Assembly: GCA_024635555.1 (NCBI GenBank)
Contig: JAGXIO010000231.1
Span: 1 to 43,107, forward strand
Length of the DNA stretch: 43,107 nt
DNA from: Saccharicrinis sp.
GTDB taxonomy: Bacteria > Bacteroidota > Bacteroidia > Bacteroidales > Marinilabiliaceae
Direction: 5' to 3'
The notes under the pieces are model-generated. The model saw nothing but the letters and a program-made list of their open reading frames with translations. It was not told the DNA's origin and did not search any database. The position numbers were made by a program, and so were the translations under genes. Position 1 is the first letter of the stretch. Each line of letters starts with the position of its first letter. This document shows, piece after piece, positions 6,674 to 40,914 of this stretch.

Positions 6674-6967
6674 CGTTGATTGTAATTGAATAATTTGCAA
6701 AATAACGAAAACCAACCACAATTGCCCACTACTTTTTTAAGAATGTATCCAGGCCAAAGAAAATTATCGGTAAATAAAATGGGCTCCTCATGGATTTGCA
6801 AACAAACAAGTTCCAAAGGGAATTATTAGAGAGATATTCATAAATTAATTTTAGTAGGGAGTATATAATCTTACAATTAAAAACTAGACTGCATAAACTA
6901 ATAAACGATTAAGCTACTGTAGCGCGTAAAAATGTCAAGTGTCTTTCATCTATTAATCTAACCTTTA

Positions 6968-7888
6968 TTATTTTTTCACAAATATCGATTTAATAATATG
7001 TTGTGCCATTTTAGGGTTTTCCTTTAGTCTGCGGGTTGAATAACCAAACCAGTCCTCACCATAGGGCACGTACACCCTCATGGTATTTCCATCTGCTACT
7101 ATGCTAGCCCTCAGTTTGGGCGATACGCCATACAACATCTGGAACTCGTACATATCCTTAGGCACCTGATATTTATTAATTAACGCGTAGGCACCTTTTA
7201 TCAATAACTCGTCGTGGGTTGCAATACCCACGTAAACACCTTCGTAGAGCAAGCGATCTAGTATATTCAGATAATTTTGGTTAATTTTTTCACCATCTTT
7301 AAAGGCGATATCCTCCGATTCGTTGTAAATACCTTTACACAACCTAAAGTTTAATGGAGAGTCTGCCGTGTGTTCCTTTAATAGCTCCTCAACATCCGAT
7401 TCGGTTCGTTTAAGATAAGCCTGCAAAACCAATCCAACACGATTGGGAAACTCCTGTTTTAACCTGCGGTAAAGATCCAATTCCTGGTCGACACGTTGGG
7501 CATCTTCCATATCTATACGTACAAAATTGTTGTGCTCACTGGCTAATGCTACGATGTTACGAATGTTTTGGTAACATTTTTCAGGGTCAATAAGCAAACC
7601 GAAGCTTGTAGGCTTCAGCGAGTAATTACCTTTGATTTGAGCACCTTCAAAAGTCTTGATAATATTCAAATATTCTTGAAGATGATCCTCGGCCTGTTGT
7701 ATGTTTGTAACAAACTCGCCCAATAAATCAACGGTAACGCTTACTCCAAGTTCGTTGAGGCCTCGTGAAACGCTAATGGCATCCTGAACGGTAACACCGG
7801 CAATATATTTTTTTGAAAACACCCAGATAAACTTTTTGGGACAATACGGAATCACCGATGCTATCGCTTTGTTGATAATACTTGCCAT
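6968..7888 (-). CDS. Proline dehydrogenase (monofunctional)
   Basis: This 306-residue FAD enzyme of the PRODH family oxidises L-proline to pyrroline-5-carboxylate and passes electrons to the quinone pool. Recognisable family signatures are IDMEDAQRVDQELDLYRRL, FRLCKGIYNE (normally RLVKGAY), YEFQMLYGVSPKLR and VYVPYGEDWFGYSTRRLKEN, which together line the FAD and proline sites in the beta8-alpha8 barrel. The length matches the single-domain enzymes rather than bifunctional PutA. No pyrroline-5-carboxylate dehydrogenase gene is adjacent. The ATG at 7888 is the first in frame and begins MASIINKAIA. Confidence 0.92.
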   Translation of the reverse strand: MASIINKAIASVIPYCPKKFIWVFSKKYIAGVTVQDAISVSRGLNELGVSVTVDLLGEFVTNIQQAEDHLQEYLNIIKTFEGAQIKGNYSLKPTSFGLLIDPEKCYQNIRNIVALASEHNNFVRIDMEDAQRVDQELDLYRRLKQEFPNRVGLVLQAYLKRTESDVEELLKEHTADSPLNFRLCKGIYNESEDIAFKDGEKINQNYLNILDRLLYEGVYVGIATHDELLIKGAYALINKYQVPKDMYEFQMLYGVSPKLRASIVADGNTMRVYVPYGEDWFGYSTRRLKENPKMAQHIIKSIFVKK

Positions 7889-8106
7889 GATTTACCTATT
7901 AAATGTCTGGTACCAACCTTTCACCCCCTATCTAAAATTTCAGGTCTGTTTAATTTTGATGCCTAATGTAAAAGTGAGGTAATTTACTCACCGAAAAAAT
8001 GACTATTCTCACAAAATACTGCCAAACGGACTAATGCTAAATTGTTTTTCATATATTTAGTAACGATGTTAGGAATAAGGGTTTATAAAAATAAAATTGT
8101 CGACAA

Positions 8107-9225
8107 ATGAAAGAAAACTTAAAATACTTGCTTGGTTTTGTTGCCATAGTGGTTGGGATATTTTTGTTATGGTATTTTAAAGCCATTGTTATCTTCATTT
8201 TTATATCTGCCATTCTATCCTTGGTTACCCGTCCGCTGTACGATTTTTTTAGGGGAAACCGAAAGGGTAAAAAGCAACAACGCAAATTTTCCTTGTCGAA
8301 GAGTATGAGTGCTTTGGCTACCTTACTGTGCTTGTGGACTTTTTTGCTGGGCTTTGCAAGCTATGTTTTCCCTTTTTTATTCGAAGAGCTACAATATTTG
8401 TCTAAGGTCGATTTTGATACTATCCTTGTTAGCCTTGAGGGATTTATCCAGCCCATCTTGGCACCTTTGGAGCATACTATTTTTGCAGAGATGAATTTTC
8501 TGGCATTTAAAACCCAGATCAGTGAATTTTTAATGACCACTTTCGATTTTGGCAAATTTCAGGAGCTGTTGACTTCGGTAGGAGTTTTTGTGGGAAGTAC
8601 ATTCATAGCCTTGTTTTCCATCTCGTTTATAACTTTCTTTTTAATCAAGGACGAATGGTTGCTTTTAGAAAGTATTAAACTATTTGTGCCCGAAACCTAT
8701 TACGTAGGTGTCGATCACATGCTGTGGTCTATAAACCGTTTGTTACGGAGGTATTTTATCGGTATAATAATCCAGATATCGCTAATATCCATTTTATTGG
8801 TTCTGGGTCTTATGCTCATTGGTCTGGAATTTAGGCATGCTCTTCTCATCGGACTGTTCTCGGGTTTTGTAAATATAATTCCCTATCTAGGGCCATTGAT
8901 AGGCGGTTTGTTTGGTGTTTCGGTTTCGTTGGTAGTGTATTTGCAATTATACAGCCCTCCAGCATTTTTACTTTATTTGGGCGGCATAGTGCTGCTATAT
9001 GTTGTGGTACAATTGTTAGATAATTTGGTTTTTCAGCCGGTTATTTTTTCGACGAGCGTAAAGGCACATCCCCTCGAAATATTTTTAATTGTTATTATGG
9101 CCGGATATATGGCCGGGATGATAGGTATGTTTTTGGCTATTCCGGTTTACACCATTGTTAGGGTGGTAGCTAAGGAGTTTTTCTCGAAATATAATTTGGT
9201 GCGTAAGCTTACAGGTAAGTTGTAG
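8107..9225 (+). CDS. AI-2E family transporter (PerM-like)
   Basis: This 372-residue integral membrane protein has seven or eight hydrophobic segments and the family's typical C-terminal signature: GFVNIIPYLGPLIGG, then LLDNLVFQPVIFS and HPLEIFLIVIMAGYMAGMIG. The family is named after a proposed autoinducer-2 exporter, but members have varied roles such as ion antiport, so the substrate is open. The N-terminus has two helices followed by a basic loop. The last 190 bases of this gene are repeated in diverged form at 18601-18788, on the far side of the carotenoid operon, which makes this gene the left boundary of a likely insertion. This copy is complete. Confidence 0.88.
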   Translation: MKENLKYLLGFVAIVVGIFLLWYFKAIVIFIFISAILSLVTRPLYDFFRGNRKGKKQQRKFSLSKSMSALATLLCLWTFLLGFASYVFPFLFEELQYLSKVDFDTILVSLEGFIQPILAPLEHTIFAEMNFLAFKTQISEFLMTTFDFGKFQELLTSVGVFVGSTFIALFSISFITFFLIKDEWLLLESIKLFVPETYYVGVDHMLWSINRLLRRYFIGIIIQISLISILLVLGLMLIGLEFRHALLIGLFSGFVNIIPYLGPLIGGLFGVSVSLVVYLQLYSPPAFLLYLGGIVLLYVVVQLLDNLVFQPVIFSTSVKAHPLEIFLIVIMAGYMAGMIGMFLAIPVYTIVRVVAKEFFSKYNLVRKLTGKL

Positions 9226-27206: not shown

Positions 27207-27236
27207 TTTGAATATTAGATTGTTTACTTAGTTTTG
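27207..27236 (+). promoter_or_regulatory. Housekeeping-type Bacteroidota promoter of the signalling operon
   Basis: TTTG (27207-27210), an 18-base spacer, then TAGTTTTG (27229-27236) match the Bacteroidota consensus of TTTG near -33 and TAnnTTTG near -7. Transcription would begin near 27243 and read into the gene at 27459. In repeat copy 2 the same spacing is kept, but the -7 box reads TAGTTGTG with one mismatch. Confidence 0.75.
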
Positions 27237-27263
27237 TAATTTTCTCTAACACGCTGATAATAT

Positions 27264-27288
27264 GACGTTTGTAAATAAGTCTAACGTC
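27264..27288 (+). promoter_or_regulatory. Conserved leader hairpin
   Basis: GACGTT (27264-27269) pairs perfectly with AACGTC (27283-27288) around a 13-base loop, about 20 bases after the predicted start of transcription. In copy 2 the arms are GGCGTT (43078-43083) and AATGTC (43097-43102). The two changes both turn Watson-Crick pairs into G-U pairs, so an RNA stem would survive, while the loop is identical. This suggests a functional RNA element, but two copies alone cannot prove it. Confidence 0.5.
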
Positions 27289-27458
27289 TACTATCTAAAA
27301 TCTATCGGTCTATTGTAAGATTTACCCTTAAAAATATGAACCCTTTTTACAGTTCTATCGTATTGGGTTAATATCTCATGGGCATGGCTTGTAAAACTTA
27401 CAAAGTAACATAGCCTCGTCTGTGATTTTTTATATTGAACTATTTTAATACAATCGTT

Positions 27459-29333
27459 GTGAAAAAAATTCAATTATCGCGCATTATAGGAAGATATACC
27501 TTTGGAGGAATCCTGCTTGGACTGCTGATTTTGGTATTTGTGGTTTTAATTAATTTAAATTCGCAAGTGTTTGCGCAATCCAACAGAACCATCGCCGATA
27601 TGTTCTATTTGTTCCCCGGCATGTGGGTACTGATTTTGTTGCCCGTGTTAACAGGTACGATAGGATATTTTATGGCTCAGAGCTTTGCCGGCACTATACG
27701 CAATCAGCGCAAGTTTATCAAAACCGAAGCGGAAAAATCGAGTACGGTTTTAAAATTCATCAACAATTTAAGGCAGGACAATCTGGATACCCTTATCATT
27801 GATGTACATGAAAAAGATCCCCTGAGCAAATCGCTATATAAGTTGCGCGACTATCTGATCAAAAATAAAAATAATCAGGAACAAGCACGGGTTCTGGAAG
27901 AACAAAGAACCTGGGTTACTCAAGGATTAGCCCAATTTGCCGAGATACTGCGCAAAAACAATGATAATATAGAAGAACTGTCCTACAACATTATCAGCTA
28001 CATGGTTAATTATTTAAAAATTAACCAAGGTGGCTTTTTCTTGCTCAACACCCATAAAAACGAGAAGTACTTCGATTTGACGGCTAGTATTGCCTTCGAC
28101 AGAAAAAAATTTGCCGACAAACAAATTAAATCCGACGAAGGCCTTATTGGACGCTGTGCCATAGAAAAGCAAACGATTTATATCACCGACGTTCCCAACG
28201 AATATATAACCATTACCTCAGGACTGGGACAAGCAAATCCTAAGGCTATTCTAATAGTACCTTTAAAAGTAAACAACGAGATTTATGGCGTCATAGAATT
28301 GGCATCATTTAGCGAGTTTGAGCCTTATGAAATTGAATTTGTGGAAAAAACGGCCGAGAGTATTGCCACCACAATATCCACGGTTCAGATAAATATACAA
28401 ACTACAAAGCTGTTACACGAAACGCAGATACAGGCCGAAAAAATGTCGCAGCAGGAAGAGGAATTGCGTCAAAACTTGGAGGAAATGCAAGCCACACAAG
28501 AGGAATCGGATAGACGTGAGGTGGAACGCAAAGGTATTTTGGAGGCCATTGACAACTCAGCTATCAGTTGCGAGTTCGAAACCGACGGTACCCTTATTTC
28601 GGTTAATCAACTATTTTTAAAAGCCTTTAAATATCAGCCTGTCGAAATAGAAGGCCAAAATATTAAGATATTTTCCTTTCATGACGAAACAGAAGAGGTA
28701 AATAAAATATTGACGGACCTGCAAAAAGGACTAAGCTTTAAAGGTAGAGTACGACGAAGAACAAAACTTGGGGACGAGATATTTTTATTGTCGACTTATA
28801 CCCCGGTTATCGACAACCAAGGCAATATTATAAAGATATTGAGCATGGAGAACGATATTACCGATCAGGTTTTTATGGAAGAGCAGATGAAGAGCTCCAA
28901 AGACGAACTGGGTAAATTGCTGGAACAGGCACGTAACGAAATGAAAGAGCAGTTCAAGGAAATTGAGGCCGTTAAAATTAGGAACGAGAAAACCCTTGAA
29001 GGAGCGCTCGATGCCATTATTACCATCAACAAAGAAGGTGTGCTGGAATTTTTTAATGCAGCCGCCGAAGGGCTTTGGGGCTACGAACGCAGCGAAGTGT
29101 TGGGGCAGCACATATCTATGCTCTTTTCTGCTGAAACAGCAAAAAAGGACGCTTTTGTTAAATCCTATGTTACCAGCGGCGAAGCCAAAAAAGTGGGAGA
29201 AAGAAAAGAAGTGCCAATAAAAAATAAATTTGGCGATGATATATCCGTCCTCTTTTTGCTCTCCGAAGCACAGGTTGGCGAGGATAGATCCTATACAGCG
29301 TTTATACAAAATGTAGAAGTGGAGTTGTTTTGA
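27459..29333 (+). CDS. Membrane GAF-PAS-PAS sensor without an output domain
   Basis: This 624-residue protein has two N-terminal membrane helices (about 12-32 and 50-70). A GAF domain follows (about 150-310, with EGLIGRCAIEKQTIYITDVP and ILIVPLKVNNEIYGVIELAS), then a glutamate-rich coiled coil (SQQEEELRQNLEEMQATQEE) and two PAS domains (about 360-480 and 510-620). It ends straight after the second PAS with no kinase, cyclase, phosphatase or chemoreceptor domain. It must therefore signal through protein contacts, perhaps with the CheR, CheB or Sia proteins encoded next. Start choices are TTG 27435 or GTG 27459; I prefer GTG because it begins VKKIQLSR. It is the first gene of the operon, 39 bases before cheR. 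Confidence 0.82.
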   Translation: MKKIQLSRIIGRYTFGGILLGLLILVFVVLINLNSQVFAQSNRTIADMFYLFPGMWVLILLPVLTGTIGYFMAQSFAGTIRNQRKFIKTEAEKSSTVLKFINNLRQDNLDTLIIDVHEKDPLSKSLYKLRDYLIKNKNNQEQARVLEEQRTWVTQGLAQFAEILRKNNDNIEELSYNIISYMVNYLKINQGGFFLLNTHKNEKYFDLTASIAFDRKKFADKQIKSDEGLIGRCAIEKQTIYITDVPNEYITITSGLGQANPKAILIVPLKVNNEIYGVIELASFSEFEPYEIEFVEKTAESIATTISTVQINIQTTKLLHETQIQAEKMSQQEEELRQNLEEMQATQEESDRREVERKGILEAIDNSAISCEFETDGTLISVNQLFLKAFKYQPVEIEGQNIKIFSFHDETEEVNKILTDLQKGLSFKGRVRRRTKLGDEIFLLSTYTPVIDNQGNIIKILSMENDITDQVFMEEQMKSSKDELGKLLEQARNEMKEQFKEIEAVKIRNEKTLEGALDAIITINKEGVLEFFNAAAEGLWGYERSEVLGQHISMLFSAETAKKDAFVKSYVTSGEAKKVGERKEVPIKNKFGDDISVLFLLSEAQVGEDRSYTAFIQNVEVELF

Positions 29334-29372
29334 TGAGGCGCGAGTGCTACCATTTTTTAAAAAGCGAGATAA

Positions 29373-30215
29373 GTGATAAATATAACACATAAGGAATTCT
29401 TACAGGAGTTAAGTAAGCAGACCCCCTACGATTTTTGTGACTATTCGGATAACTCCATACAAAGGCGTATCCATAGAATAATCCAGGAAAGTGGGTTAAA
29501 CCTGAACGAATTATTGGCAAAGGCAACTGCCGATGCCGATTTTGTGGAACGCCTGGTGAACGATATCACGGTTAATACTACCGAACTGTTCCGTAACCAG
29601 GATGTTTGGGAATATTTGTATACCAATGTGATGCCAAAGCTAAAATCAAAAAAAAATATAAACGTTTGGCATGCAGGCTGTTCAACCGGTCAAGAGGTGT
29701 ATTCAAATCTTATTTTATTAAATGAGCTTGATATGCTTGATAAGGCAAACGTGGTGGCATCTGACATTAACAACTGGGTGGTAAAAACTGCTAAAGATGG
29801 TGAATATCCTTTCCGATTCAATGCCCAATACATTGATACGTATAATCAGTTGATGAGTAAAATAAAGCCAAATGCCAATCCATTTGAATATTATTTCGAT
29901 ATAGATAAGGAAAGCGATAAAATGAAGGCGAAAAACTTTTTAACAGATATACCTAAATTTGTAAAGCACGATTTGGTGGCCGAGGAAATGCCATTTTATC
30001 AAAAATTCGATATCATTTTTTGTCGTAACGTATTGATTTATTTTAATCCTGAATTACAAGTTAAAATTGTGCGCAAGTTTTTTGATAAATTATACGATAA
30101 CGGGGTACTCATCTTAGGTTCGCACGAGGGCTTGCACGGTTTCGTAAAAACACATTTTGTAAAAAATGGCATGGTGTACACTAAAAATAAGACCTTTCAT
30201 TTAACGTATAAGTAA
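29373..30215 (+). CDS. cheR: CheR-type protein-glutamate methyltransferase
   Basis: This 280-residue protein has the CheR N-terminal helical domain (RRIHRIIQESG, then DITVNTTELFRNQDVWEYL) and the SAM-binding Rossmann domain (WHAGCSTGQEVYS at about 99-111, ASDIN at 129-133, FDIIFCRNVLIYFNPE at 212-227). One motif position has Gln where most CheR proteins have Glu. CheR methylates glutamates in coiled-coil receptors. No chemoreceptor is encoded here, so the substrate may be one of the coiled coils of the GAF-PAS proteins in this operon, which is inference. It starts with GTG and is followed two bases later by a degenerate relative. Confidence 0.9.
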   Translation: MINITHKEFLQELSKQTPYDFCDYSDNSIQRRIHRIIQESGLNLNELLAKATADADFVERLVNDITVNTTELFRNQDVWEYLYTNVMPKLKSKKNINVWHAGCSTGQEVYSNLILLNELDMLDKANVVASDINNWVVKTAKDGEYPFRFNAQYIDTYNQLMSKIKPNANPFEYYFDIDKESDKMKAKNFLTDIPKFVKHDLVAEEMPFYQKFDIIFCRNVLIYFNPELQVKIVRKFFDKLYDNGVLILGSHEGLHGFVKTHFVKNGMVYTKNKTFHLTYK

Positions 30216-30217
30216 TC

Positions 30218-31024
30218 ATGGCTATTGGCCCAACTATAAACGATATAAAGGAAATTACCGCTGCTTTGTCGCTTAAGCTTAAATTGGACTACACCAATTA
30301 TGCGTTTTCATTTCTTAGGCGTAGATTGGCTCTAATTTACTGTACTCTAAAAATTAAAAAGACCGAAACTTTTTTGGAAGATATCCAAACCGGTAAGGTG
30401 ACTCAGGACTTTTGCTATTTTTTTCCAGTAGCCGAAGATGAATTATTTCGCGACCCTTCTTTCTGGCGCTCCTTACGTACAAAAATATTGCCTGCCTTAG
30501 GCGATAATCTTTCCTTTTGGTTTCCCGAATTAGTGTCCGCTGAGGAATTGTATTCCTTGCTTATTATTTTGGAAGAGGAGAAATTGACCCATAAAGCAAA
30601 AATATTCTGCAACATACAAAGTTGTCAACGGATAGAAGAATTAAAGCAGGGCAAAATAAGCCTTAAAAATATCGAAATCCACAAAAGTAATTTTAAGCGG
30701 CTCGAACTTCATAGCAAATTCGAAGACTTTTTTACTGAAGACAATGCATATGCTGTAATAGATGAAGGACTAATGCAAAACGTAGCCTTTTTAAATGATA
30801 ATTACTTCAATTGCATTCCTAACCAACAAATAGCATGTACCTTGTTCCGCAATAGAATGCTTTATTATAACGGTAAAATGCAATGCCAGTCCGAAAAATA
30901 TTTGCACCAGTGTCTGGGTAAAGGAGTCTTTATGGTGCTAGGTATAAAAGAACAGATAAGCAAAGAGAACGAACTTTTATTTGAGTTGTTTGATAACAGC
31001 GAACAAATTTATCAGGTATTATAA
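30218..31024 (+). CDS. Degenerate CheR-like protein (probable pseudoenzyme)
   Basis: This 268-residue protein follows cheR by two bases and lines up with it along its length. The N-terminal arginines (FLRRRLALIY) and AEDELFRDPSFWRSL match the CheR region RRIHRII and TTELFRNQDVWEYL. The SAM-binding loop WHAGCSTGQEVYS is replaced by WFPELVSAEELYS, losing both glycines. The later FDIIFCRNVLIYFNPE becomes IACTLFRNRMLYYNGK, losing the acidic residue. Methyl transfer therefore looks impossible, while the fold appears kept. The reading frame is intact, so it is not a decaying pseudogene. I infer a regulatory or binding partner of CheR, derived from an old duplication. Confidence 0.75.
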   Translation: MAIGPTINDIKEITAALSLKLKLDYTNYAFSFLRRRLALIYCTLKIKKTETFLEDIQTGKVTQDFCYFFPVAEDELFRDPSFWRSLRTKILPALGDNLSFWFPELVSAEELYSLLIILEEEKLTHKAKIFCNIQSCQRIEELKQGKISLKNIEIHKSNFKRLELHSKFEDFFTEDNAYAVIDEGLMQNVAFLNDNYFNCIPNQQIACTLFRNRMLYYNGKMQCQSEKYLHQCLGKGVFMVLGIKEQISKENELLFELFDNSEQIYQVL

Positions 31025-31032
31025 TTTTAGCG

Positions 31033-31608
31033 ATGCAACAAAATACAGCCGTAAAGTATAAAGCCATTGTAATGGGAGGTTCGGCCGGAAGCTTTTCGGT
31101 GGTATCCAAGATACTGTCGAATATTAATCCGGATTTTAAATACCCCATTGTTATTTGCATGCATAGGCTAAAGCACATTCGCTCGGGCTTGGTGGAGGGT
31201 TTGCGTTTAAAATCGAACTTACCTGTAATAGAACCTTTTGACAAAGAAAACATAGAAGGCGGCAAGGTGTATCTGGCTCCATCAAATTACCATATGTTTA
31301 TCGAAATAGATGCCACCATAAGTTTGTCAACCGAGGAAGTGTATAATCACTCGCGCCCCTCTATCGATCATACCTTCATGTCGGCAGCCACATCCTTCCG
31401 CGAAAAAATGGTGGGTATAATACTTACAGGTGCAAATAAAGATGGTGCTATGGGCATGAGGGAAGTACATGTTAGAAATGGTTATACCATAATACAGGAT
31501 CCCGCAACGTGCGATGTGCAAACCATGCCCAATGCTTCATTACAACTTTTTAAACCCAACAAACTATTGTCGCCACAGGGGATTACTGATTTTTTAAACA
31601 GCCTTTAG
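31033..31608 (+). CDS. cheB: Stand-alone CheB methylesterase domain
   Basis: This 191-residue protein is the catalytic domain of CheB without the receiver domain. The triad is visible: Ser17 in GGSAGS, His44 in ICMHRL and Asp137 in TGANKDG. Middle motifs such as GGKVYLAPSNYHMFI and SRPSIDHTF are typical. CheB removes methyl groups, or amide groups, from receptor glutamates and so opposes CheR. Without a receiver it cannot be switched by CheA phosphorylation, so activity may be set by interaction with the neighbouring sensors. It lies eight bases after the CheR-like gene and nine before the GAF gene. Confidence 0.9.
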   Translation: MQQNTAVKYKAIVMGGSAGSFSVVSKILSNINPDFKYPIVICMHRLKHIRSGLVEGLRLKSNLPVIEPFDKENIEGGKVYLAPSNYHMFIEIDATISLSTEEVYNHSRPSIDHTFMSAATSFREKMVGIILTGANKDGAMGMREVHVRNGYTIIQDPATCDVQTMPNASLQLFKPNKLLSPQGITDFLNSL

Positions 31609-31617
31609 TTTTTAGTC

Positions 31618-32385
31618 ATGAAAAAAAACGAGATATACCTATTATATAGCTTAGCCACCGGAGCCTTTTTACTGGCCCTAACAAAATATTTTTTTGTGGG
31701 CAATGTGGTGTTAGACTCTAAATATTTTGTCTTCGAATTTATCTCGTTTGGATTATTTTTAGCTATTGTATATGTTTTCGATCGATTTATCAGGGAAAGG
31801 AATAAGGAAAAATACGCATTACAGATGCAGCTTAGGAAGACGCAAGATGAAAGTAAGCAAGAAATTATGCGTCTACAAAAAACGATAACATTGCTTAGGG
31901 ATGAGCAAAATAAGGATGGCAACAAAGATGAGATAGATAAGGTGTCACAACAAATTCTGGCCGGACTAAAAGAAAGTGGCGACGATAAGAGCTTTGCCAA
32001 TAGGCTCTTAAAAAATTTATCCACTGTTTATGAGGTAGGATTGGCTGTTTGTTACTTTTATGACAAACCTTCTGAAAAATTTACCGTAAAAGCCACCTAC
32101 GGGTTAGCAGTAGATATATTTCCCGGCGATTTTGTTGCCGGCGAAGGATTGAATGGACAGGCTGCAGCCGATAAAAAATATAGGCTTCTAGCGGATGTGC
32201 CTGAAGATTATTTCAATATAGAATCGGCATCGGGACAATCAAAACCCAGCCATATCTATTTGTTACCCTTAGTTAAGGATGATAATTGCATCGGATTAAT
32301 TGAAATAGCTAGCTTTGCCCAAGTGGATATGCAAAATCATTGGAGCAAACTGAGCGAAAGCATTGTAAATGTTATGAATTTTTAA
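31618..32385 (+). CDS. Membrane-anchored GAF-domain protein
   Basis: This 255-residue protein has two membrane helices (about 7-27 and 38-60), a charged coiled coil (about 62-105) and one GAF domain (about 120-255, with GEGLNGQAAADKKYRLLADVPEDYF and IYLLPLVKDDNCIGLIEIAS). The GAF segments closely resemble those in the sensors at 27459 and 32465, so the three are paralogous sensory modules. It has no output domain. It may form mixed assemblies with the other membrane sensors through its coiled coil. The ligand is unknown. Confidence 0.78.
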   Translation: MKKNEIYLLYSLATGAFLLALTKYFFVGNVVLDSKYFVFEFISFGLFLAIVYVFDRFIRERNKEKYALQMQLRKTQDESKQEIMRLQKTITLLRDEQNKDGNKDEIDKVSQQILAGLKESGDDKSFANRLLKNLSTVYEVGLAVCYFYDKPSEKFTVKATYGLAVDIFPGDFVAGEGLNGQAAADKKYRLLADVPEDYFNIESASGQSKPSHIYLLPLVKDDNCIGLIEIASFAQVDMQNHWSKLSESIVNVMNF

Positions 32386-32464
32386 GATAAAGATAAGCTG
32401 CTTGTTATAAGAACAATAATATTCAATACAATTTAGGTTTAAACTGTCAAAGATAATAAACGCT

Positions 32465-35071
32465 ATGCCTGTAAAAAGGACGAAAAGATATATAAAGGAA
32501 TACCTCAACCTATCCTGGATAGGGGAGCAGGAACAGTTTTTTTTGGCGGTTTTTGTTATCCTTGTTTACCTGATGGCTTGGGCAGGATTTGCCGATTTTA
32601 AGGATTTACCCTTTTCCATGGCTACTATCCTGAAAATACATTCCAGTGTTTTGGTTTGGTTTGTGGATGTGCTCATTGCTAGCACTTGGGCCGGCAGCAT
32701 TGTGACGTTAAATTATGTGCGCAAAATTAAAAGCCGTGAAAACCAAAAAATCAATGAATTAAAAGAACAATTGCAGAGCAACGTACAGGTAGCCCAAATC
32801 ATACGCAACGGCGATTACGATAAGATAGAAAGCCTCCAACAAACCGATTCTCCTTTACTGCAACTTGCCCGTGATTTAGAAGGAATCAACAAAAAGGAAG
32901 AAGAATTGAAGTGGGCTACCCAAGGCAAAGAGCTTATTAACGATATACTACGTACCTACAGAAATCTCGACAAGCTTTCCATAGAAATTCTGAAGGCCAT
33001 CATAAATTACGTCGGAGGCGTTCAGGGCGCTTTTTATCTGTTGCAAAACGATAAACTAGTGAACAGGGCCAGTTACGCTTTTAACCGACAACGTTTTGTG
33101 AATCAAGAGTATCAAATTGGCCGTGGATTGGTGGGCCAGGTAGCCTTTGAAAAGGCCATGATTTACCGCACCGAAATACCCGACGATTATTTTACCGTCA
33201 CTTCGGGATTAATTAACGATGCCAAACCCAAAAGCTTAATTATATTGCCCTTGATGCAGGAGGATGAGTTGCAAGGCATTCTGGAGATAGCCTTTTTGCA
33301 CCCTAGTTTGCCGGCATATAAAATTAGCTTTGCACAAGAGCTTGGCTCCATGATTGGACGTACCATTTATGCCCAAAAAATTAATGCCCAAACCGAAGTG
33401 CTATTACGCGAGTCGCAACAAATGACTCAGGCACTTACACAAAATCAGGAAACACTAAAGCAAAATGCCCGCGAAATGATGATTGCCCAGGAGGAACTGG
33501 AGCAGTCGAACGAGCTTTTAGAAACAAAGGTGCAGGAAGTCGAAAACGGACATAAGCGCATGGTAGCCCTTCTAACAAATGCCTCGGAGTTCATTTCGAT
33601 TTATGATGCCAACCAGCGATTGGTCTTTGAAAGTCCATCGGTAAAACGCATTTTAGGATATAAGGATGGCGACGATATTATAGGTATGGATCCCGATTTG
33701 ATGACACCCAAGGGCTACAAAGCCATCGACACGCTGTTTAAATATCTACTTCAAACACCCGGTGGCGAAAGTGAGGCGCAATATGCCTATCTGAAAAAAT
33801 CTGGCGAAAGACTTTACCTCGAAACGAAGGGTAAAAATCTTTTGCATGATCCGGCCATAAAGGGTATAATTTTTAACACACAAGACATCACCGAGCGCTT
33901 CATGATGGAAAAAGAGCAGCGCATGAAAAGTAGGATGCAATCTCTTTCCGAAAATTCGCCCGATATGATATTGCGTATCAACACAACGGGTAAATTGGTG
34001 TATGCCAACCCTGTTGTATCTAAATTTATTGGGTTAAATGTAAGCGAAATAACCAAAAAAAGAATTAATGAATTGGAGATTGACGAGCGTTTTCTCGAAT
34101 TTGTTAACCAAGTGCTCCATAAAATTAAAGACGTTCAGGAACAGATTATCGATGAAGTTGTTATCAATACCCCACATGGCGAACGGGTAATGGAAATAAA
34201 GGCCATCCCAGAATTTGATGACAGCAAGCAACTGGAATCCATTCTTTTTGTAGCCCACGATATGACGGAGCTAAAAAAGATAGAACAAGAAATTAAAGAG
34301 AAAAATAAAAAGATTTCGGACAGCATCAACTATGCACAAAGGATACAAACTTCGATACTCCCCGATACTTCTTTTATTCAGCATCATTTTCCCCGTTCAT
34401 TCATATTTTATCGCCCAAAGGATGTGGTTAGTGGAGATTTTCCCTGGTTTGTTCAAAAAGATGAAACATTTTATGTGGCTGCCGTAGACTGCACAGGACA
34501 CGGAGTTCCGGGTGCATTGTTGTCGTTTATTGGATATTTTCTTTTAAATAACATTATAAACCTCGATAATAACTTTGGAGCTGCCAAAATACTGGATCTG
34601 TTGCACGAAGGTGTGCGCACCACCCTAAAACAATACGAAGAAGGGAATAACGGGCGCGACGGAATGGATTTGGCACTTTGTAAAATAGATAAAGAAAAAA
34701 AGGTAATTCAGTTTGCAGGTGCGCATAACCCATTATATTTGCTCCGCAATGGCGAGCTGACAGAATATAAAGGAAGCCGCAAAGGTATTGGTGGAAAGCC
34801 TTTATTGAATAAAACGGAAAAAGATTTCGAAAATAACGTCATTCCGTATCAAAATGGCGATAAAATATTTATCTTTTCCGACGGACTGCCCGATCAAATC
34901 GGCGGCGAAAATCGACGTAAATACCAATCCAAACGAATAAGGGAAGTCCTTACCGAAAGAGAGGGGCTTACCATAGCACATTTCGAAAAATATTTTTCGG
35001 AAGATTTTTACCGATGGATGGGTAACGAAAAGCAAGTAGATGACGTATTGCTGATTGGAATAGAATTGTAA
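32465..35071 (+). CDS. Membrane GAF-PAS-PAS PP2C-type phosphatase (SiaA-like)
   Basis: This 868-residue protein has two membrane helices (about 25-45 and 55-80) and a GAF domain (about 165-310, with GRGLVGQVAFEKAMIYRTEIP). Two PAS domains (about 375-490 and 500-610) and a SpoIIE/PP2C phosphatase domain (about 640-868) follow. The phosphatase motifs are FYRPKDVVSGDF, AAVDCTGHGVPGALLS, FAGAHNPLYLLRNG and IFIFSDGLPDQIGG, with the metal-binding aspartates in place. It is followed by siaB and siaC homologues, so its substrate should be phosphorylated SiaC, as for SiaA of Pseudomonas. The sensor half differs from SiaA, which has a HAMP domain. The gene begins 79 bases after the GAF gene. Confidence 0.88.
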   Translation: MPVKRTKRYIKEYLNLSWIGEQEQFFLAVFVILVYLMAWAGFADFKDLPFSMATILKIHSSVLVWFVDVLIASTWAGSIVTLNYVRKIKSRENQKINELKEQLQSNVQVAQIIRNGDYDKIESLQQTDSPLLQLARDLEGINKKEEELKWATQGKELINDILRTYRNLDKLSIEILKAIINYVGGVQGAFYLLQNDKLVNRASYAFNRQRFVNQEYQIGRGLVGQVAFEKAMIYRTEIPDDYFTVTSGLINDAKPKSLIILPLMQEDELQGILEIAFLHPSLPAYKISFAQELGSMIGRTIYAQKINAQTEVLLRESQQMTQALTQNQETLKQNAREMMIAQEELEQSNELLETKVQEVENGHKRMVALLTNASEFISIYDANQRLVFESPSVKRILGYKDGDDIIGMDPDLMTPKGYKAIDTLFKYLLQTPGGESEAQYAYLKKSGERLYLETKGKNLLHDPAIKGIIFNTQDITERFMMEKEQRMKSRMQSLSENSPDMILRINTTGKLVYANPVVSKFIGLNVSEITKKRINELEIDERFLEFVNQVLHKIKDVQEQIIDEVVINTPHGERVMEIKAIPEFDDSKQLESILFVAHDMTELKKIEQEIKEKNKKISDSINYAQRIQTSILPDTSFIQHHFPRSFIFYRPKDVVSGDFPWFVQKDETFYVAAVDCTGHGVPGALLSFIGYFLLNNIINLDNNFGAAKILDLLHEGVRTTLKQYEEGNNGRDGMDLALCKIDKEKKVIQFAGAHNPLYLLRNGELTEYKGSRKGIGGKPLLNKTEKDFENNVIPYQNGDKIFIFSDGLPDQIGGENRRKYQSKRIREVLTEREGLTIAHFEKYFSEDFYRWMGNEKQVDDVLLIGIEL

Positions 35072-35092
35072 ATGATTTAAATAATTTTGAAA

Positions 35093-35665
35093 ATGGAGAA
35101 AACTATTGACAGCCATAGCTTCCTGGATTTTGCCTACCAGCTTTACCAGACTATGAAAACAAACGAGATAAGTTTGGTATATGAGGGTGAAGTAACCCAA
35201 GAAATAACAAAAACCTTTACCTCCCTTACCGAGAAAAACCTCGCTAAAAATGAAGAATCCAATGCAGTTCAACGCAAGGTATTTAATGTAATGGTAGAAT
35301 GTTTGCAAAACATTAGCAAACACGCCGATTCGATGATAGACGAAGAAGGCGAGGAACGAAGAGGAATTGTGATGGTGAGCAAAGGCGAGGAAAGCTACAA
35401 TATCATTACCGGCAACGTAATTAAAAACGATAAAGTAGAAGGCCTTACACGAAACCTGGAACAGGTTAACTCCTTAGATAAAAAAGGACTTTCTGATCTC
35501 TACAAAACCCAAATGCGCGAAGGAAAATTTTCCGACAAAGGCGGTGCTGGATTAGGACTTATCGATATTGCTAAAAAAACAGGTGCCGAACTTAGATACC
35601 AGTTTAAAGAATTGAACGATCAAGTTTCCTTCTTTATCTTAACATCTACAATAAAACGAAAATAA
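35093..35665 (+). CDS. siaB: SiaB-family protein kinase
   Basis: This 190-residue protein has a reduced GHKL ATPase fold. The N-box is visible as VMVECLQNISKHAD and the G2 box as KGGAGLGLIDIAKKTG. The preceding part (SFLDFAYQLYQTMKTNEISLVYEGEVTQ) matches SiaB proteins. SiaB phosphorylates the small switch protein SiaC, encoded 26 bases downstream, and the PP2C protein encoded just upstream reverses this. I start it at ATG 35093 (MEKTIDSHSF) rather than the TTG two codons earlier. Confidence 0.88.
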   Translation: MEKTIDSHSFLDFAYQLYQTMKTNEISLVYEGEVTQEITKTFTSLTEKNLAKNEESNAVQRKVFNVMVECLQNISKHADSMIDEEGEERRGIVMVSKGEESYNIITGNVIKNDKVEGLTRNLEQVNSLDKKGLSDLYKTQMREGKFSDKGGAGLGLIDIAKKTGAELRYQFKELNDQVSFFILTSTIKRK

Positions 35666-35691
35666 GTAATTAATATATTAAAATAATAGCC

Positions 35692-36072
35692 ATGGAAGTT
35701 ATTAATATTCAGGGAACAGACGATACTCCTAACGTAATCCTCGATAAAAGCAAGGGTAAATTTGAACTCTCTGGACGCTCCCTGCCCGAAGATGTAAATT
35801 TATTTTACCAGGCCATTTTGGATTGGATAGACGGATATGCCGAAGACCCAAACGAAAAAACAGAATTTGATTTTAAACTGGAATACTTTAATACCGCCTC
35901 CTCGAAAATTATTTTGGACATCCTTTTAAAATTCGAAGAAATTGTAGAAAGTGGAAAAAAAGTAAAAATTATTTGGCACTACCACGAGGAAGAGGAAGAT
36001 ATGCTTGAAGCCGGCGAAGAGTATGCCGATATTGTTGAAATACCTTTTGAATACGTACCTTATAGCGATTAA
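35692..36072 (+). CDS. siaC: SiaC-family regulatory phosphoprotein (DUF1987)
   Basis: This 126-residue DUF1987 protein has the hallmark segment LEYFNTASSKIILDILLKFE. The threonine falls at residue 68, the number I recall for the phosphorylated threonine of Pseudomonas SiaC, so it is the likely target of SiaB. The C-terminus is strongly acidic (HEEEEDMLEAGEEYADIVEIP). In Pseudomonas unphosphorylated SiaC binds and activates the diguanylate cyclase SiaD, but no such gene is present here. Its partner is therefore open, and the exporter encoded 72 bases downstream is the nearest candidate. Confidence 0.9.
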   Translation: MEVINIQGTDDTPNVILDKSKGKFELSGRSLPEDVNLFYQAILDWIDGYAEDPNEKTEFDFKLEYFNTASSKIILDILLKFEEIVESGKKVKIIWHYHEEEEDMLEAGEEYADIVEIPFEYVPYSD

Positions 36073-36144
36073 GTGCTAAATTCGGATAAATAAGCCTGTC
36101 TATAATCAAGCAGGTTGATTCTTACATCTTGATACTTATTATAA

Positions 36145-39100
36145 ATGAGTGAAGAAATATTAAAAGCCCTAATGCAACTGTTTGGCCTCATAGCCAAGCA
36201 AGATGGTGGCGTGCGGGACACGGAATTAGAGTATGTAAAAAGTTTTTTGAAAGCCCAGCTTAGTGCTGAAGCTGCAGAGGAATATTTTGCCCTGTTTCGG
36301 AATCACTCTGAAGATAAAAAAGGAAATGAGGATGCCGAAGATGGTAAGGTAAAACTTACCTCCATGAAGGATTCTGTGCGCATAATAGGAATCTGTAAAA
36401 AAATTAACAAACAGCTCAACAAGGAGCAAAAAGTGGTTGTGCTGGTAAGGATGTACGAGCTAATAAATGCCGACAGACGTTTTACCGACCAGCGCATGGC
36501 CATTATAAACACCGCAGCCGATGTGTTTCGCCTACCCCAAGACGAAAAAAAGAACATAGAAGCTTTTGTGGTCAACAATAACCTTGAACAACTCGATTTC
36601 GAGAGCCTCATGGTTATCGATTCAGATGAAAATGTAGGGCTTAAACGCGAACACATCACAACAGGCAAGTTGCAAGGCAGCGTGCTTATTTTAAGAGTAA
36701 AAAGTGCCGATTTATACTTTCTAAGATATACAGGAACACAAGAGATTTTTTTAAACGGACTGGCTTTAAACCAGCGGAGGATATACCTTTTCCCCAAAGG
36801 CAGTTTTCTTAAATTTCCGGTAGGCACACCCATCTATTACACCGATGTGGTTAGTCGCTTTATGAGCGATGAGTCAACGGCAAAAATATCCTATGTTGTC
36901 GATAAATTAGGCTTCACCTTTAAAAATGGGGGTATAGGACTCCGCGATGTCAACCTGGCCGAGGAGCATGGTCGCTTGGTGGGCATTATGGGAGCTAGCG
37001 GTGCAGGAAAAACTACCTTGCTCAATGTACTTTCGGGCACTGAGAAACCCAGCACCGGTCAAGTTCGTATCAACGGTATTGATCTTCATGCCGAAAATGA
37101 AAAGCTCGAGGGGGTTATCGGACTCATACCCCAGGACGATTTATTGATTGAAGAACTTACCGTTTTCGAAAACCTTTATTACAATGCCAAGCTTTGCTTT
37201 AAGGATAAAAGTGAAGAAGAAATCACTGTAATGGTGAACGATACGCTTCAAAGTTTGGGACTGTTTGAGCGCCGAAACCTAAAAGTGGGATCGCCTCTTA
37301 ATAAAATGATTAGCGGAGGACAGCGTAAGCGTTTAAATATTGCGCTGGAGCTTATCCGCGAACCCGCTATTTTGTTTGTCGATGAGCCTACTTCCGGCCT
37401 ATCCTCGCGCGACTCCGAAAATGTGATGAACCTACTCCGAGAGCTCACCCTAAAAGGCAAACTCATATTTGTGGTTATTCATCAACCATCATCCGACATC
37501 TACAAGATGTTCGATAAAATGTTTATTCTGGATACCGGCGGATATCCGGTTTACTATGGTAACCCCAGCGAATCGCTTATCTATTTTAAACAGCTCGACG
37601 AGCAAATTAATGCCGATCAGGGCGAATGTCCACAATGTGGTAACCTGAACCCCGAAATGGTATTTAATATTATTGATGCCAATGTATTGGATGAGTACGG
37701 CAATTATACCAATAGCCGTAAAACTAAACCCGAAATTTGGAATGATTATTACAACAAAAACATACAAATACCTGAGGTAACAGAAGTAAATACAGAACCA
37801 CCAAAATCATTGAATATCCCAAGGTGGATAAAGCAGTTTCAAATTTATACCCAGCGCGATTTTTTTGCTAAAGTAGCCAATAAGCAATACATACTGCTTA
37901 ACATACTCGAAGCCCCTGTTTTAGGTTTTATTTTGGCCTTTTTGATACGATATATTGTAGATCCAGATTCAAACACCTATATTTTTAGAGATAACGAAAA
38001 CATTGCGCCTTATATTTTTATGGGTATTGTAGTAGCCCTATTTTTTGGATTGATAGTGAGTGCCGAGGAAATATTTAAAGATGCAAAAATACTCAAGCGC
38101 GAATCGTTTCTTAATCTATCGCGCTCCAGTTATCTCATTTCCAAAATCCTTATCCTATTTACCATTTCGGCTTTACAAATGGCTCTTTTTGTGGGCGTTG
38201 CAAACTCAGTTTTGGGTATCAAGGGTATGTATTTCGATTTTTGGCTAGCCTTGTTCTCGGTAGCCGCATTTGCCAATATTTTAGGACTCATCCTGTCGGC
38301 TTCCTTTAATTCTATTGTTACCATATACATCCTCATACCTTTAGTAATGATACCTCAAATGGTATTAGGAGGAGCCATGTTTACCTTTGATAAGTTAAAC
38401 CGCGACGTAGCTAGTGCCGATAAAGTGCCTTGGATAGCCGAGCTGATGCCTTCGCGGTGGATATACGAAGGGCTTATTGTAGAGCAATACAAAAACAACA
38501 AGTTTAAAAAACTGTTTTTCGATGTAGAACAGCAGGAAAGTGCCAGTGATTTTAAAGCCGTATATTACTTTCAGGAGTTAGAAAGCATTTTGGATGAATC
38601 TATAGATTATGTTACAAGCAGCAATCCTAAACAGGACGAAAAAACTTACAAACAGGATTTAGCCTTGCTCAGGAATGAACTTTCAAAAGAAAGCAGAAGA
38701 GTTAGTGACATTCCTTTTGTCTCAATAGACAGTTTAAATACTGAGAATTTTAATACTTCGGTGGCTATTTCCGTGGCTCAGCATATCAATCAGCTAAAGG
38801 AACATTATAGCAATAGCTTTGTAGTAGCATCCGCCAAAAAGGAGCGGATGATAAACCTAGCTATGGATAAATACGGCAAAGAGCAATTCACCGAAGTAAA
38901 AAACAAACACTTCAACGAGAGTATAAACGATATTGTACGCAAGGTTTTCGAAAAAAATAAAATACTCCGCCAGGGCGATAAGCTTATTCAAAACGTGGAT
39001 CCTATTTACCAAATGCCCGAACCGGAATATGCGTTGCAATTCCGAACCCATTTTTTCGCACCTAAAAAACACTTTGCCGGTACCTATTTCGAAACCTTAT

Positions 39101-39216
39101 GGTTTAATATCTCAATGGTTTGGATTTTTACCCTTTTGCTATATGCTGTGCTGTATTTTGACCTTTTACGTAAGTCATTTAAATTTTTTGGAGAATTAAA
39201 ACCAACTAAAAAGTAA
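36145..39216 (+). CDS. ABCG-type exporter fused to TerB-like and FHA-like domains
   Basis: This 1023-residue protein starts with a TerB-like helical region (about 1-145, EILKALMQLFGLIAKQDGGV and LINADRRFTDQRMAI). A beta-rich FHA-like domain follows (about 165-240). The ATPase has Walker A GASGAGKT (283-290), Q-loop GLIPQDDLL, signature ISGGQRKR (389-396), Walker B ILFVDEPTSG and switch VVIHQPSSD. A CPQCGNLNPE segment and an ABC-2 membrane domain (about 590-760) come next. A long soluble insert of about 190 residues then precedes a last helix near 970-1000. One chain holds one half-transporter, so it should dimerise. FHA domains bind phosphothreonine, which could link it to the SiaC phospho-switch; that is inference. 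The cargo is unknown. Confidence 0.85.
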   Translation: MSEEILKALMQLFGLIAKQDGGVRDTELEYVKSFLKAQLSAEAAEEYFALFRNHSEDKKGNEDAEDGKVKLTSMKDSVRIIGICKKINKQLNKEQKVVVLVRMYELINADRRFTDQRMAIINTAADVFRLPQDEKKNIEAFVVNNNLEQLDFESLMVIDSDENVGLKREHITTGKLQGSVLILRVKSADLYFLRYTGTQEIFLNGLALNQRRIYLFPKGSFLKFPVGTPIYYTDVVSRFMSDESTAKISYVVDKLGFTFKNGGIGLRDVNLAEEHGRLVGIMGASGAGKTTLLNVLSGTEKPSTGQVRINGIDLHAENEKLEGVIGLIPQDDLLIEELTVFENLYYNAKLCFKDKSEEEITVMVNDTLQSLGLFERRNLKVGSPLNKMISGGQRKRLNIALELIREPAILFVDEPTSGLSSRDSENVMNLLRELTLKGKLIFVVIHQPSSDIYKMFDKMFILDTGGYPVYYGNPSESLIYFKQLDEQINADQGECPQCGNLNPEMVFNIIDANVLDEYGNYTNSRKTKPEIWNDYYNKNIQIPEVTEVNTEPPKSLNIPRWIKQFQIYTQRDFFAKVANKQYILLNILEAPVLGFILAFLIRYIVDPDSNTYIFRDNENIAPYIFMGIVVALFFGLIVSAEEIFKDAKILKRESFLNLSRSSYLISKILILFTISALQMALFVGVANSVLGIKGMYFDFWLALFSVAAFANILGLILSASFNSIVTIYILIPLVMIPQMVLGGAMFTFDKLNRDVASADKVPWIAELMPSRWIYEGLIVEQYKNNKFKKLFFDVEQQESASDFKAVYYFQELESILDESIDYVTSSNPKQDEKTYKQDLALLRNELSKESRRVSDIPFVSIDSLNTENFNTSVAISVAQHINQLKEHYSNSFVVASAKKERMINLAMDKYGKEQFTEVKNKHFNESINDIVRKVFEKNKILRQGDKLIQNVDPIYQMPEPEYALQFRTHFFAPKKHFAGTYFETLWFNISMVWIFTLLLYAVLYFDLLRKSFKFFGELKPTKK

Positions 39217-39273
39217 CCTTTTGTTCTGATTGTAGTATAAATCAACAGTTTCAACATTTAAACAACCTATAAT

Positions 39274-40194
39274 ATGTTAAGAAAATTATTTAATTGTACA
39301 GCTATACTAAGTGTAATATTACTATTTTCGGCGTGTGCCGGAAATTCTAGTAAAGATAAAACAGATGGCAGCGACTTTTCTTTGTCGGATTCGGCCATTA
39401 ACGAAAACGCACCACTGCAACTCTCCGAAGATATTATTGGTGAGGTAATTCAAAACATTTCCTCTCCGGTTGAAATGGCATCCCTCATTAAAAAATCGGG
39501 TGTGGATTTTTCACAAAAAATCCTCAACAATCCAGACAAGGTCGGTGATTATAATACGAGCTTTAAACGAGCCTTAAACCTCGGCGTTTTTAGTGCTGAT
39601 TTGGGATATATTAATACCTTCGACAAAAGTACTATTGTAGTTTCGTACCTATTGTCAGTAAAAGAACTGGCCGAAGGGATTAAAGTGGGACAATTCTTTG
39701 ACTTTGCCGCACTTAAAAGGATGGCCAGCAACAGCAGCAACCTCGATTCCTTGATGGAAGTATCCGTAAGTAGTTTTAATAAGATGGACGCCTACCTACG
39801 CAGCCAAAATCGTAGCCACGTGAGCACGCTAATTGTTACCGGTGCCTGGGTGGAAGGCCTTTACATTGCTAATAGTGTGATTAAGGAAACTAGGAATCCT
39901 GAGCTCATCAATCGTATTGGCGAGCAAAAAGATATCATCGACATATTGTTGATTATTTTGGGGAACTATAGCCACGATAAGAACTTTGCCGAAATGGTAA
40001 CACGCATGGAGCAGGTTAAACAAGCCTATGCCGGTGTAAAAATTACTACGGAATTTGGCGAGCCTAAGAGGATTGAACGCGATGGCACCCTAATAATAGT
40101 GCAAGACGAAATTAGCCACGTTGAAATTACCCCTGAACAAGTGGATAATATTATTGCAGAAATAAGTAGTTTAAGAGATTTCATTGTTTTATAA
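39274..40194 (+). CDS. Lipoprotein of unknown function
   Basis: This 306-residue protein has a signal peptide and lipobox FSAC at Cys21, followed by a Ser/Asp-rich linker and a mostly helical domain. I do not recognise a named family. Segments such as NLGVFSADLGYINTFDKST, VTGAWVEGLYIANSVIKETR and VDNIIAEISSLRDFIVL are well ordered and the frame is clean. It follows the exporter by 57 bases in the same direction, so it may be an envelope partner of the exporter or a sensor input for the upstream membrane proteins. Confidence 0.75.
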   Translation: MLRKLFNCTAILSVILLFSACAGNSSKDKTDGSDFSLSDSAINENAPLQLSEDIIGEVIQNISSPVEMASLIKKSGVDFSQKILNNPDKVGDYNTSFKRALNLGVFSADLGYINTFDKSTIVVSYLLSVKELAEGIKVGQFFDFAALKRMASNSSNLDSLMEVSVSSFNKMDAYLRSQNRSHVSTLIVTGAWVEGLYIANSVIKETRNPELINRIGEQKDIIDILLIILGNYSHDKNFAEMVTRMEQVKQAYAGVKITTEFGEPKRIERDGTLIIVQDEISHVEITPEQVDNIIAEISSLRDFIVL

Positions 40195-40351
40195 ATACAA
40201 TGATTGAAGGGATTAAAGCTCCTGTAGAAAAGAATTTTGAATATAAAATTAACACACATGAAACGAGACATGGGAGCTCTCGCTTCAATAGAACAGTGAT
40301 TTCAATGACGAGTTCCATCGAATACCAATAAGAACAAATAATTTTAATGAG

Positions 40352-40807
40352 ATGAAAAAAATATTAGCTATAGCTCTACTCCTGGTTTCGGTTGTTTATA
40401 CAACAATTGATGCACAGTGTGGCGACGATTTACTTAAGAAGGCTCTAAAAGAAATGGGCGATTCGCAATATATGAAGGATTTTAATGTAGATCTGACAAA
40501 TGTAAGTAAAGACACAAAAACAGGTTACATTAAGTTTAGCGTAATACTAAACAGCAGAACCCATTACAAATTTAATACTACCGATGGTTTAGGTAACTCC
40601 GAAAAAGTAATTATGCAACTTTACGACGGAGATAAAATGATGGCAAGTAATTATGATAGTGGTAAAATGTATCAATCCTTCGAGTTTGTTTGCCGTAAAT
40701 CAAAGGTATATAATCTGGTTTTCTCCTATCAGGGAGGTGCCGAAGGTTGCTCAAAAGCAGTAATGTCGATGGTAAAACAATATGCCGAAGGTGAAATGAA
40801 CTTTTAG
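40352..40807 (+). CDS. Small secreted protein, last gene of the signalling operon
   Basis: This 151-residue protein has a clear signal peptide (KKILAIALLLVSVVYTTIDA) and a mature part of about 130 residues beginning QCGDD, with three cysteines that might pair. The sequence alternates charged and aromatic residues (GYIKFSVILNSRTHYKFN, KVYNLVFSYQGGAEGC), suggesting a beta-sandwich. I do not recognise a family. A 157-base gap separates it from the lipoprotein, but no terminator lies between them, and a strong terminator follows 80 bases after its stop. It could be cargo or a periplasmic partner of the exporter. Confidence 0.72.
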   Translation: MKKILAIALLLVSVVYTTIDAQCGDDLLKKALKEMGDSQYMKDFNVDLTNVSKDTKTGYIKFSVILNSRTHYKFNTTDGLGNSEKVIMQLYDGDKMMASNYDSGKMYQSFEFVCRKSKVYNLVFSYQGGAEGCSKAVMSMVKQYAEGEMNF

Positions 40808-40887
40808 TACATCGCCATAAAATTCAACTGAAACTATTCAAAATAGCTTACACATATGGCAAGCTATATTTAATTATACGGAATATA

Positions 40888-40914
40888 AAAGCGTTGCCTC
40901 AGCAGCGCTTTTTT
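40888..40914 (+). terminator. Intrinsic terminator of the signalling operon
   Basis: A 10-bp stem (40888-40897 with 40902-40911, one G-U pair) with loop CTCA runs directly into a T tract ending at 40914. It is the only clear terminator after the promoter at 27207, so it marks the end of a transcript of about 13.6 kb. Confidence 0.9.

Follow-up and report, generated by a model that had tools for sequence, protein, structure and literature searches.

In Pseudomonas aeruginosa, the SiaABCD system is built around the small protein SiaC, whose residue Thr68 is acted on by both the sensor phosphatase SiaA and the kinase SiaB (PMC7647112). The diguanylate cyclase SiaD has a helical stalk to which SiaC binds through Tyr65, Asn67 and Thr68, and phosphorylation blocks this docking (PMC8457831). 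Here, a related module from Saccharicrinis sp. is described, encoded in an operon of 11 genes on the + strand of contig JAGXIO010000231.1 (assembly GCA_024635555.1). The whole contig of 43,107 nt was analysed; it is called the window in what follows and is labelled C73. The operon encodes SiaA-, SiaB- and SiaC-like proteins next to an ABC exporter. It is considered, with a probability of roughly 0.6, to be a Sia-type partner-switch module that has the exporter as its output instead of a diguanylate cyclase, and that receives chemosensory-type inputs.

The present operon and the P. aeruginosa system both have a sensor phosphatase of the PP2C type, a SiaB kinase and a SiaC protein with Thr68 in an equivalent motif, encoded by three adjacent genes (PMC7647112; PMC8457831). 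In contrast to that system, however, the operon contains no SiaD, its genome has no GGDEF match, and an ABC exporter is found in the place of the output. Moreover, SiaA carries GAF and PAS domains here, CheR and CheB precede the Sia proteins, and the scores stay below the NCBIfam equivalog cut-offs for SiaA (171.7 vs. 700 bits), SiaB (96.4 vs. 225 bits) and SiaC (89.8 vs. 150 bits). A second system that invites comparison is Rv1747-PknF of Mycobacterium tuberculosis, in which an ABC exporter carrying FHA domains at its N-terminus is reported to be modulated by a Ser/Thr kinase encoded alongside. Instead of FHA domains and a Ser/Thr kinase, the Saccharicrinis operon has a TerB domain and an FHA-fold domain without the binding residues, and its SiaB-type kinase would act through a small carrier protein. 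Thirdly, Wsp is an alternative-cellular-function chemosensory pathway, with a response-regulator cyclase as output. Wsp-type pathways combine a methyl-accepting chemotaxis protein (MCP), CheA, CheW, CheR and CheB with a non-motility output in the same cluster, as is also seen in relatives of the window, but here the output would be a phosphoswitch with an exporter, and a second CheR/CheB set is present. No description of SiaC (DUF1987) or SpoIIE joined to an ABC exporter was found among the papers listed in searches of the open-licence literature.

The pairing of SiaC with the exporter is seen at the genomic level. In the window, siaC (35692–36072, +) is followed by the exporter gene (36145–39216, +). 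The sequence-only reading of this DNA had already taken the exporter as the SiaC-linked output, and comparative genomics supports the pairing. The genome of the window contains four SiaC matches, three of which are full length, and each full-length SiaC adjoins an exporter paralogue. The geometry is tandem in the window, convergent on contig C193 and divergent on contig C150, where a SiaA-like HAMP-SpoIIE gene directly follows the exporter. All 60 genomes of the family that were surveyed contain the exporter N-terminus, and 59 of them contain SiaC. For 96 of the 150 SiaC genes listed for these genomes, a listed exporter N-terminus lies no more than 6 kb away, and these pairs, among the matches listed, are tandem (56), convergent (36) or divergent (4); 95 of the 150 listed exporters are nearest to a listed SiaC. 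In an even sample of 61 genomes from the phylum, SiaC and the exporter share one distribution: 3 genomes have both, and the other 58 have neither.

Diguanylate cyclases do not follow this distribution. GGDEF domains occur in 37 of the 61 phylum genomes and in none of the 3 that hold SiaC and the exporter. The genome of the window gave zero GGDEF matches in a search that was positive in 8 of 14 control genomes, and so offers no target of the SiaD type. An exporter search of genome contigs yielded 50 loci, 44 of which were taken into the GGDEF search (all except L031, L045, L058, L062, L066 and L067), and 41 of these 44 exporter-bearing genomes have no GGDEF match. For SiaC, the one studied target that was found is a diguanylate cyclase, while here the switch persists in genomes without any. 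Since it does so mostly beside the exporter, a specific new class of SiaC effector is predicted.

Several observations weigh against the exporter as the output of SiaC. GGDEF domains are found in 3 of the 44 exporter-bearing genomes (14 matches in G017, 1 in G035 and 1 in G044). The fourth SiaC match in the genome of the window is a short frame on C12, an 11 kb contig without an exporter, and 54 of the 150 listed SiaC genes lack a listed exporter within 6 kb. Inspection of 14 stretches with unlinked SiaC genes revealed an adjacent exporter in 2 and an exporter at approximately 10 kb in 1, leaving 11 without; 7 of these also lack siaB by blastp and 4 have it. There are exporters without an adjoining SiaC as well, i.e., those of L031 and L058, that of contig C60 in the genome of the window, and 55 of the 150 among the matches listed. 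The 11 SiaC stretches without a nearby exporter would be expected if SiaC acts on another effector, for instance a coiled-coil protein or a transcription factor, with the exporter being co-expressed but untouched by the switch. A LytTR response regulator (Pfam) encoded after siaBC in L100 (5135–6467) fits this explanation, and a coiled-coil stalk is the part on which SiaC acts in Pseudomonas (PMC8457831). However, such an effector would leave the adjacency to the exporter in three paralogous loci of one genome, in three geometries, unaccounted for, as well as the identical presence of SiaC and exporter across the 61 phylum genomes. Action on another effector is therefore regarded as improbable, while it keeps a real share of the probability.

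Other arrangements of these genes were encountered. L099 (4390–5664) has siaBC followed by a response-regulator-like gene, L087–L093 contain siaC genes without siaB according to blastp, and L091 holds two siaC genes in tandem. On contig C60 (L085, 7486–10449), a more distant exporter paralogue without SiaC comes after an OmpA-domain gene and a gene whose product is presumably outer-membrane-like. A link between missing TerB and missing SiaC was considered for the exporters and dropped, because the exporter fragments on contigs C11 and C258 merely stop at contig ends.

Conservation of the gene set in relatives had been proposed as a test of the operon, and it was indeed found to be a conserved unit. 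Among the loci with a long exporter frame, 33 extend at least 9 kb upstream; the exporter adjoins SiaB and SiaC in all 33, and CheR1 and the short CheB are present in 28. SiaA occurs in 29, counting L028, in which the siaA frame is broken in three. Some genes were counted as present from tblastn, namely the SiaC of L034 and the short CheB of L043, for which no open reading frame (ORF) was called, and the SiaC of L048, where the exporter is split. When an upstream length of at least 500 bases is accepted, the set widens to 43 loci with a long exporter frame; SiaC is present in 41, the exceptions being L031 and L058. The operon-bearing loci include Plebeiobacterium, Labilibacter, Alkaliflexus, Marinilabilia, rumen Bacteroidales, Flexithrix, Splendidivirga and Agaribacillus. 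Reduced loci exist: the gut loci L036, L038 and L044 keep only siaB, siaC, the exporter, the lipoprotein gene and the secreted gene, and L059 has SiaABC and the exporter, without CheR/CheB in the locus. The core is therefore SiaB–SiaC–exporter; SiaA forms the next layer, and CheR/CheB and the additional sensors make up the outer one. Exporter with SiaBC, then with SiaABC, with CheR/CheB and with a che cluster form a natural series that is ready for genetic comparisons.

Vertical inheritance could in principle keep neighbours together without any functional link, and as the surveyed family is one clade, its genomes are not independent. Such a chance set is contradicted by the counts, including the shared presence of SiaC and exporter in the 61-genome sample. 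Gene order is kept down to approximately 50% exporter identity, and the core is maintained across geometries. It is also maintained in a split operon, L033, where cheB-gaf-siaA is on the opposite strand at a distance of about 10 kb and siaB-siaC-exporter-lipoprotein-secreted gene is intact. A chance association is thus held to be highly improbable. Three contigs of metagenome-assembled genomes labelled Kosmotogales, Thalassobius and Thalassovita (L035, L061 and L065) carry this Bacteroidota operon as well, which probably reflects binning errors.

The Sia proteins of the operon retain residues of their active-site motifs and, in SiaC, those that contact the SiaD stalk in Pseudomonas (PMC8457831). 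SiaA (32465–35071, +) is a membrane sensor phosphatase with a GAF-PAS-PAS-SpoIIE organization, assigned by Pfam and NCBIfam and matching 6k4e by phmmer (5.8e-35). Five Asp residues in its active-site motifs, as expected for the metal-binding Asp of a PP2C/SpoIIE phosphatase, are kept in 33 of 33 sequences. SiaB (35087–35665, +) belongs to the SiaB-family protein kinases (NF038262, 175.9 bits against a cut-off of 85; phmmer match to 6kko chain A), and Glu71 and Asn75 of its VECLQN motif are kept in 45 of 45 sequences. SiaC (PF09345, 140 bits; profile matches to 6kko, 6kkp, 7e6g and 6k4f) aligns over its length with the solved SiaC of P. aeruginosa in a comparison of its profile with the PDB. 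Its Thr68 lies within YFNTASSK. Tyr65, Asn67 and Thr68 are conserved in an alignment of 30 sequences, Thr68 being present in at least 90% of them and replaced by Ser in the C150 paralogue. With the active-site motifs of SiaA and SiaB and the key residues of SiaC kept, the switch should be functional. Judging from homology and from these conserved residues, SiaB would phosphorylate SiaC at Thr68 and the membrane-bound SiaA would strip the phosphate.

The exporter, a protein of 1023 residues, combines TerB (residues ~8–137), an FHA-fold domain (~150–240), an ABC ATPase and an ABC2 membrane domain, as determined from Pfam and NCBIfam searches, alignment, a predicted model and a fold search. The ATPase precedes the membrane domain in one chain (PF00005, PF01061), which is the ABCG/White-type arrangement, and the TIGR00955 score is 249.8 bits, below the cut-off of 736. 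By inspection, the C-terminal part consists of a long stretch followed by a last hydrophobic segment. PDB sequences are matched mainly through the ATPase, with the fungal CDR1 on top, followed by ABCA3, ABCB1 and ABCG transporters. A model of residues 1–262, predicted from 36 sequences with a predicted local distance difference test (pLDDT) of 86.8, shows a helical TerB part and a beta domain. The best PDB matches of the latter in a fold search are FHA domains, with probabilities up to 1.0 and a best E-value of 0.013, none reaching 0.001; a weaker match is PG1108 of Porphyromonas gingivalis (2h5n), a protein without assigned function. Pfam FHA gave no match in the exporter at an E-value of 0.01. 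Phosphothreonine-binding FHA domains are defined by the motifs GR, SxxH and NG-T. These residues are absent from the FHA-fold domain in the exporter alignment; SLNGTYLNG of Mek1 aligns with the TGTQEIFLNG region (E-value 0.48). The sequence-only reading had assigned a phosphothreonine-type FHA-like domain to the exporter; the predicted fold is FHA-like, but since the binding residues are missing, recognition of phosphothreonine by this domain was rejected. The domain may instead be a docking or oligomerisation module.

One form of SiaC, the unphosphorylated one by analogy with Pseudomonas, would dock on the cytoplasmic platform formed by TerB and the FHA-fold domain and thereby set the activity of the exporter. 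The docking site may be a helical segment of the TerB region. Two further proteins encoded downstream are likely partners of the exporter in the envelope, as suggested by their linkage. The first is a predicted lipoprotein (39274–40194, +) with a Cys21 that is invariant in the alignment. Its gene follows the exporter in 32 of the 33 loci, and the exception, L028, holds a piece of it at the locus end. The second is a small secreted-like protein (40352–40807, +), present downstream in 30 of the 33 loci, with weak relatives (E-values from 1e-7 to 0.006) that neighbour other exporter paralogues. Neither protein matched a Pfam family, and the fold of the lipoprotein gave no convincing PDB match (best E-value 0.85). 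In the three gut loci, the lipoprotein gene is duplicated after the exporter, as is the small secreted gene in L036.

Besides the switch and the exporter, the operon encodes sensors and enzymes of the chemosensory type. The gene senA (27459–29333, +, with a possible longer TTG start at 27435) encodes a membrane GAF-PAS-PAS sensor without a kinase domain (Pfam GAF_2, PAS), whose orthologues are 56–79% identical in Bacteroidales loci where they are nearly full length. A membrane GAF protein (31618–32385, +) is encoded between the short CheB and SiaA, with a GAF_2 score of 26.7 bits that is slightly under the curated cut-off of 28.6. Together with SiaA, these GAF/PAS sensors would provide the inputs to the switch. 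CheR1 (29373–30215, +) is a glutamate methyltransferase (PF01739, 133 bits; phmmer match to 5ftw), with the S-adenosylmethionine (SAM) motif HxGCS in 31 of 32 sequences, the window included, and HAGSS in L029. The degenerate CheR-like protein CheR2 (30218–31024, +; PF01739, 30.7 bits) has lost the SAM motif in all 21 aligned sequences, i.e., the window and 20 relatives, and the gene is nonetheless kept; by its sequence, CheR2 is a conserved pseudo-methyltransferase. The short CheB (31033–31608, +) consists of the methylesterase domain alone (191 aa; PF01339, 155.5 bits; aligned to 3sft), has no receiver domain, and retains Ser17, His44 and Asp137 in 32 of 32 sequences, the window included.

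Probably, the dedicated pair of CheR1 and CheB tunes the coiled-coil sensors of the operon via glutamate methylation. A helix with the sequence EELRQNxEEMQATQEE is located between the GAF and PAS domains of both senA and SiaA, and it is possible that it serves as the methylation region. The helix was not found in the scanned che/MCP stretches of the genome of the window, which comprised 8 of the 18 stretches with an MCP match (L005–L012), L013–L017, L071 and L072. Methylation of these sensors is called into question by L059, which has the same helix in a 23 kb locus without CheR/CheB, and by the fact that no methyl-accepting site was identified in the operon sensors.

Chemosensory genes are also found outside the operon. 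The sequence-only reading had noted the absence of MCP, CheA, CheW and SiaD. This is true of the window, with no MCP match on its contig and no GGDEF match in the genome, but not of the wider context. The genome has 18 matches to the MCP domain, counting pieces and two below the cut-off, and 5 to the CheW domain. Its contig C205 carries a che cluster (L071, 7023–16338) encoding MCP, STAS, REC, Hpt, CheA, two CheW, CheR, HATPase, CheD and REC-CheB, in which STAS and Hpt are slightly under their cut-offs and the second CheW comes from a separate CheW search. The HATPase protein of this cluster is encoded between CheR and CheD. In relatives, the gene immediately before senA encodes REC-CheB in 20 of the 33 loci; some of these genes are cut by the locus end, and 15 are whole frames. 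The REC-CheB of L018 shares 85.6% identity with the product of the final gene in the C205 cluster. A che cluster runs into the Sia operon in 8 of the 11 upstream stretches examined (8 of 10 in one set and 0 of 1 in addition), entering senA on the same strand in L110, L112–L117 and L119. Hpt is missing in L116, and L114 shows a gap of about 0.4 kb. In the genome of the window, the che cluster and the Sia operon are on separate contigs, which suggests that an ancestral super-cluster has been split. The MCP-CheA-CheW system encoded directly upstream in Marinilabiliales and related Bacteroidales would form a further input. No che cluster is present in the other 3 stretches, which is a point against this input. 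L111 and L118 have neither senA nor che genes at the expected place, and L108, a Cytophagales stretch upstream of L063, contains the start of the CheR-to-exporter operon and no che cluster in about 15 kb. In L038, from a gut lineage, an MCP gene (HAMP and MCPsignal; 6547–8313) precedes siaB-siaC-exporter in the same orientation at a distance of approximately 0.6 kb, as a further chemosensory neighbour.

The position of the che cluster directly upstream in those 8 stretches, and of REC-CheB before senA in the 20 loci, could mean that the second CheR/CheB pair serves the MCPs of the neighbouring che system rather than the GAF/PAS sensors, in which case the operon would be chemosensory and would carry one additional pair for adaptation. 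Against this, the che cluster has its own CheR, CheD and REC-CheB, the short CheB offers no receiver domain to CheA, and CheR/CheB stay with gaf-siaA-siaB-siaC in Cytophagales loci. Because L108 has the start of the operon without a che cluster, CheR1 and CheB are apparently part of the Sia operon proper. Service to the MCPs is a serious possibility for the CheR/CheB part, to which we nevertheless give well under even odds. Turning back to the exporter as output of the Sia switch, its most elaborate form would have MCP-CheA and the second CheR/CheB pair, the latter methylating non-MCP GAF/PAS sensor-phosphatases, jointly setting the phosphorylation of SiaC, which in turn would gate the exporter by direct docking on the TerB/FHA-fold region. 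This complete scheme is put forward tentatively and is rather unlikely to hold in all its parts. If true, joint control of an exporter by chemosensory proteins and SiaC would be a new class of post-translational exporter control, in bacteria without diguanylate cyclases. The operon would also link a transporter to glutamate methylation and threonine phosphorylation and, in relatives, to a CheA system, in Bacteroidota of environmental as well as gut origin.

According to the ORF listing of the window, the 11 genes extend from 27435/27459 to 40807, and the gene families that were first assigned from the letters alone (CheR, CheB, sensors, the Sia set and TerB-ABC) were confirmed by Pfam and NCBIfam searches. 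The intergenic gaps measure 39, 2, 8, 9, 79, 15, 26, 72, 57 and 157 bases, so that the earlier statement of most gaps being under 80 bases holds for 9 of 10. The operon had also been described as lying between one strong promoter and one strong terminator, of which the promoter is weakly supported. A candidate site with the pattern TTTG-N18-TAGTTTTG, which follows the consensus of Bacteroidota-type promoters, is found at 27207–27236 (+). The window contains 4 matches to this pattern, with 2.64 expected from shuffles, and sigma-70-type sites are at chance level (61 found, 57.3 expected). Terminator-like hairpins show no excess in the window, with 15 found and 15.6 expected in shuffles. The candidate intrinsic terminator of the operon (40887–40912, +) nevertheless stands out among them, as its 11-pair stem, accompanied by a T tract, is the longest in the scan.

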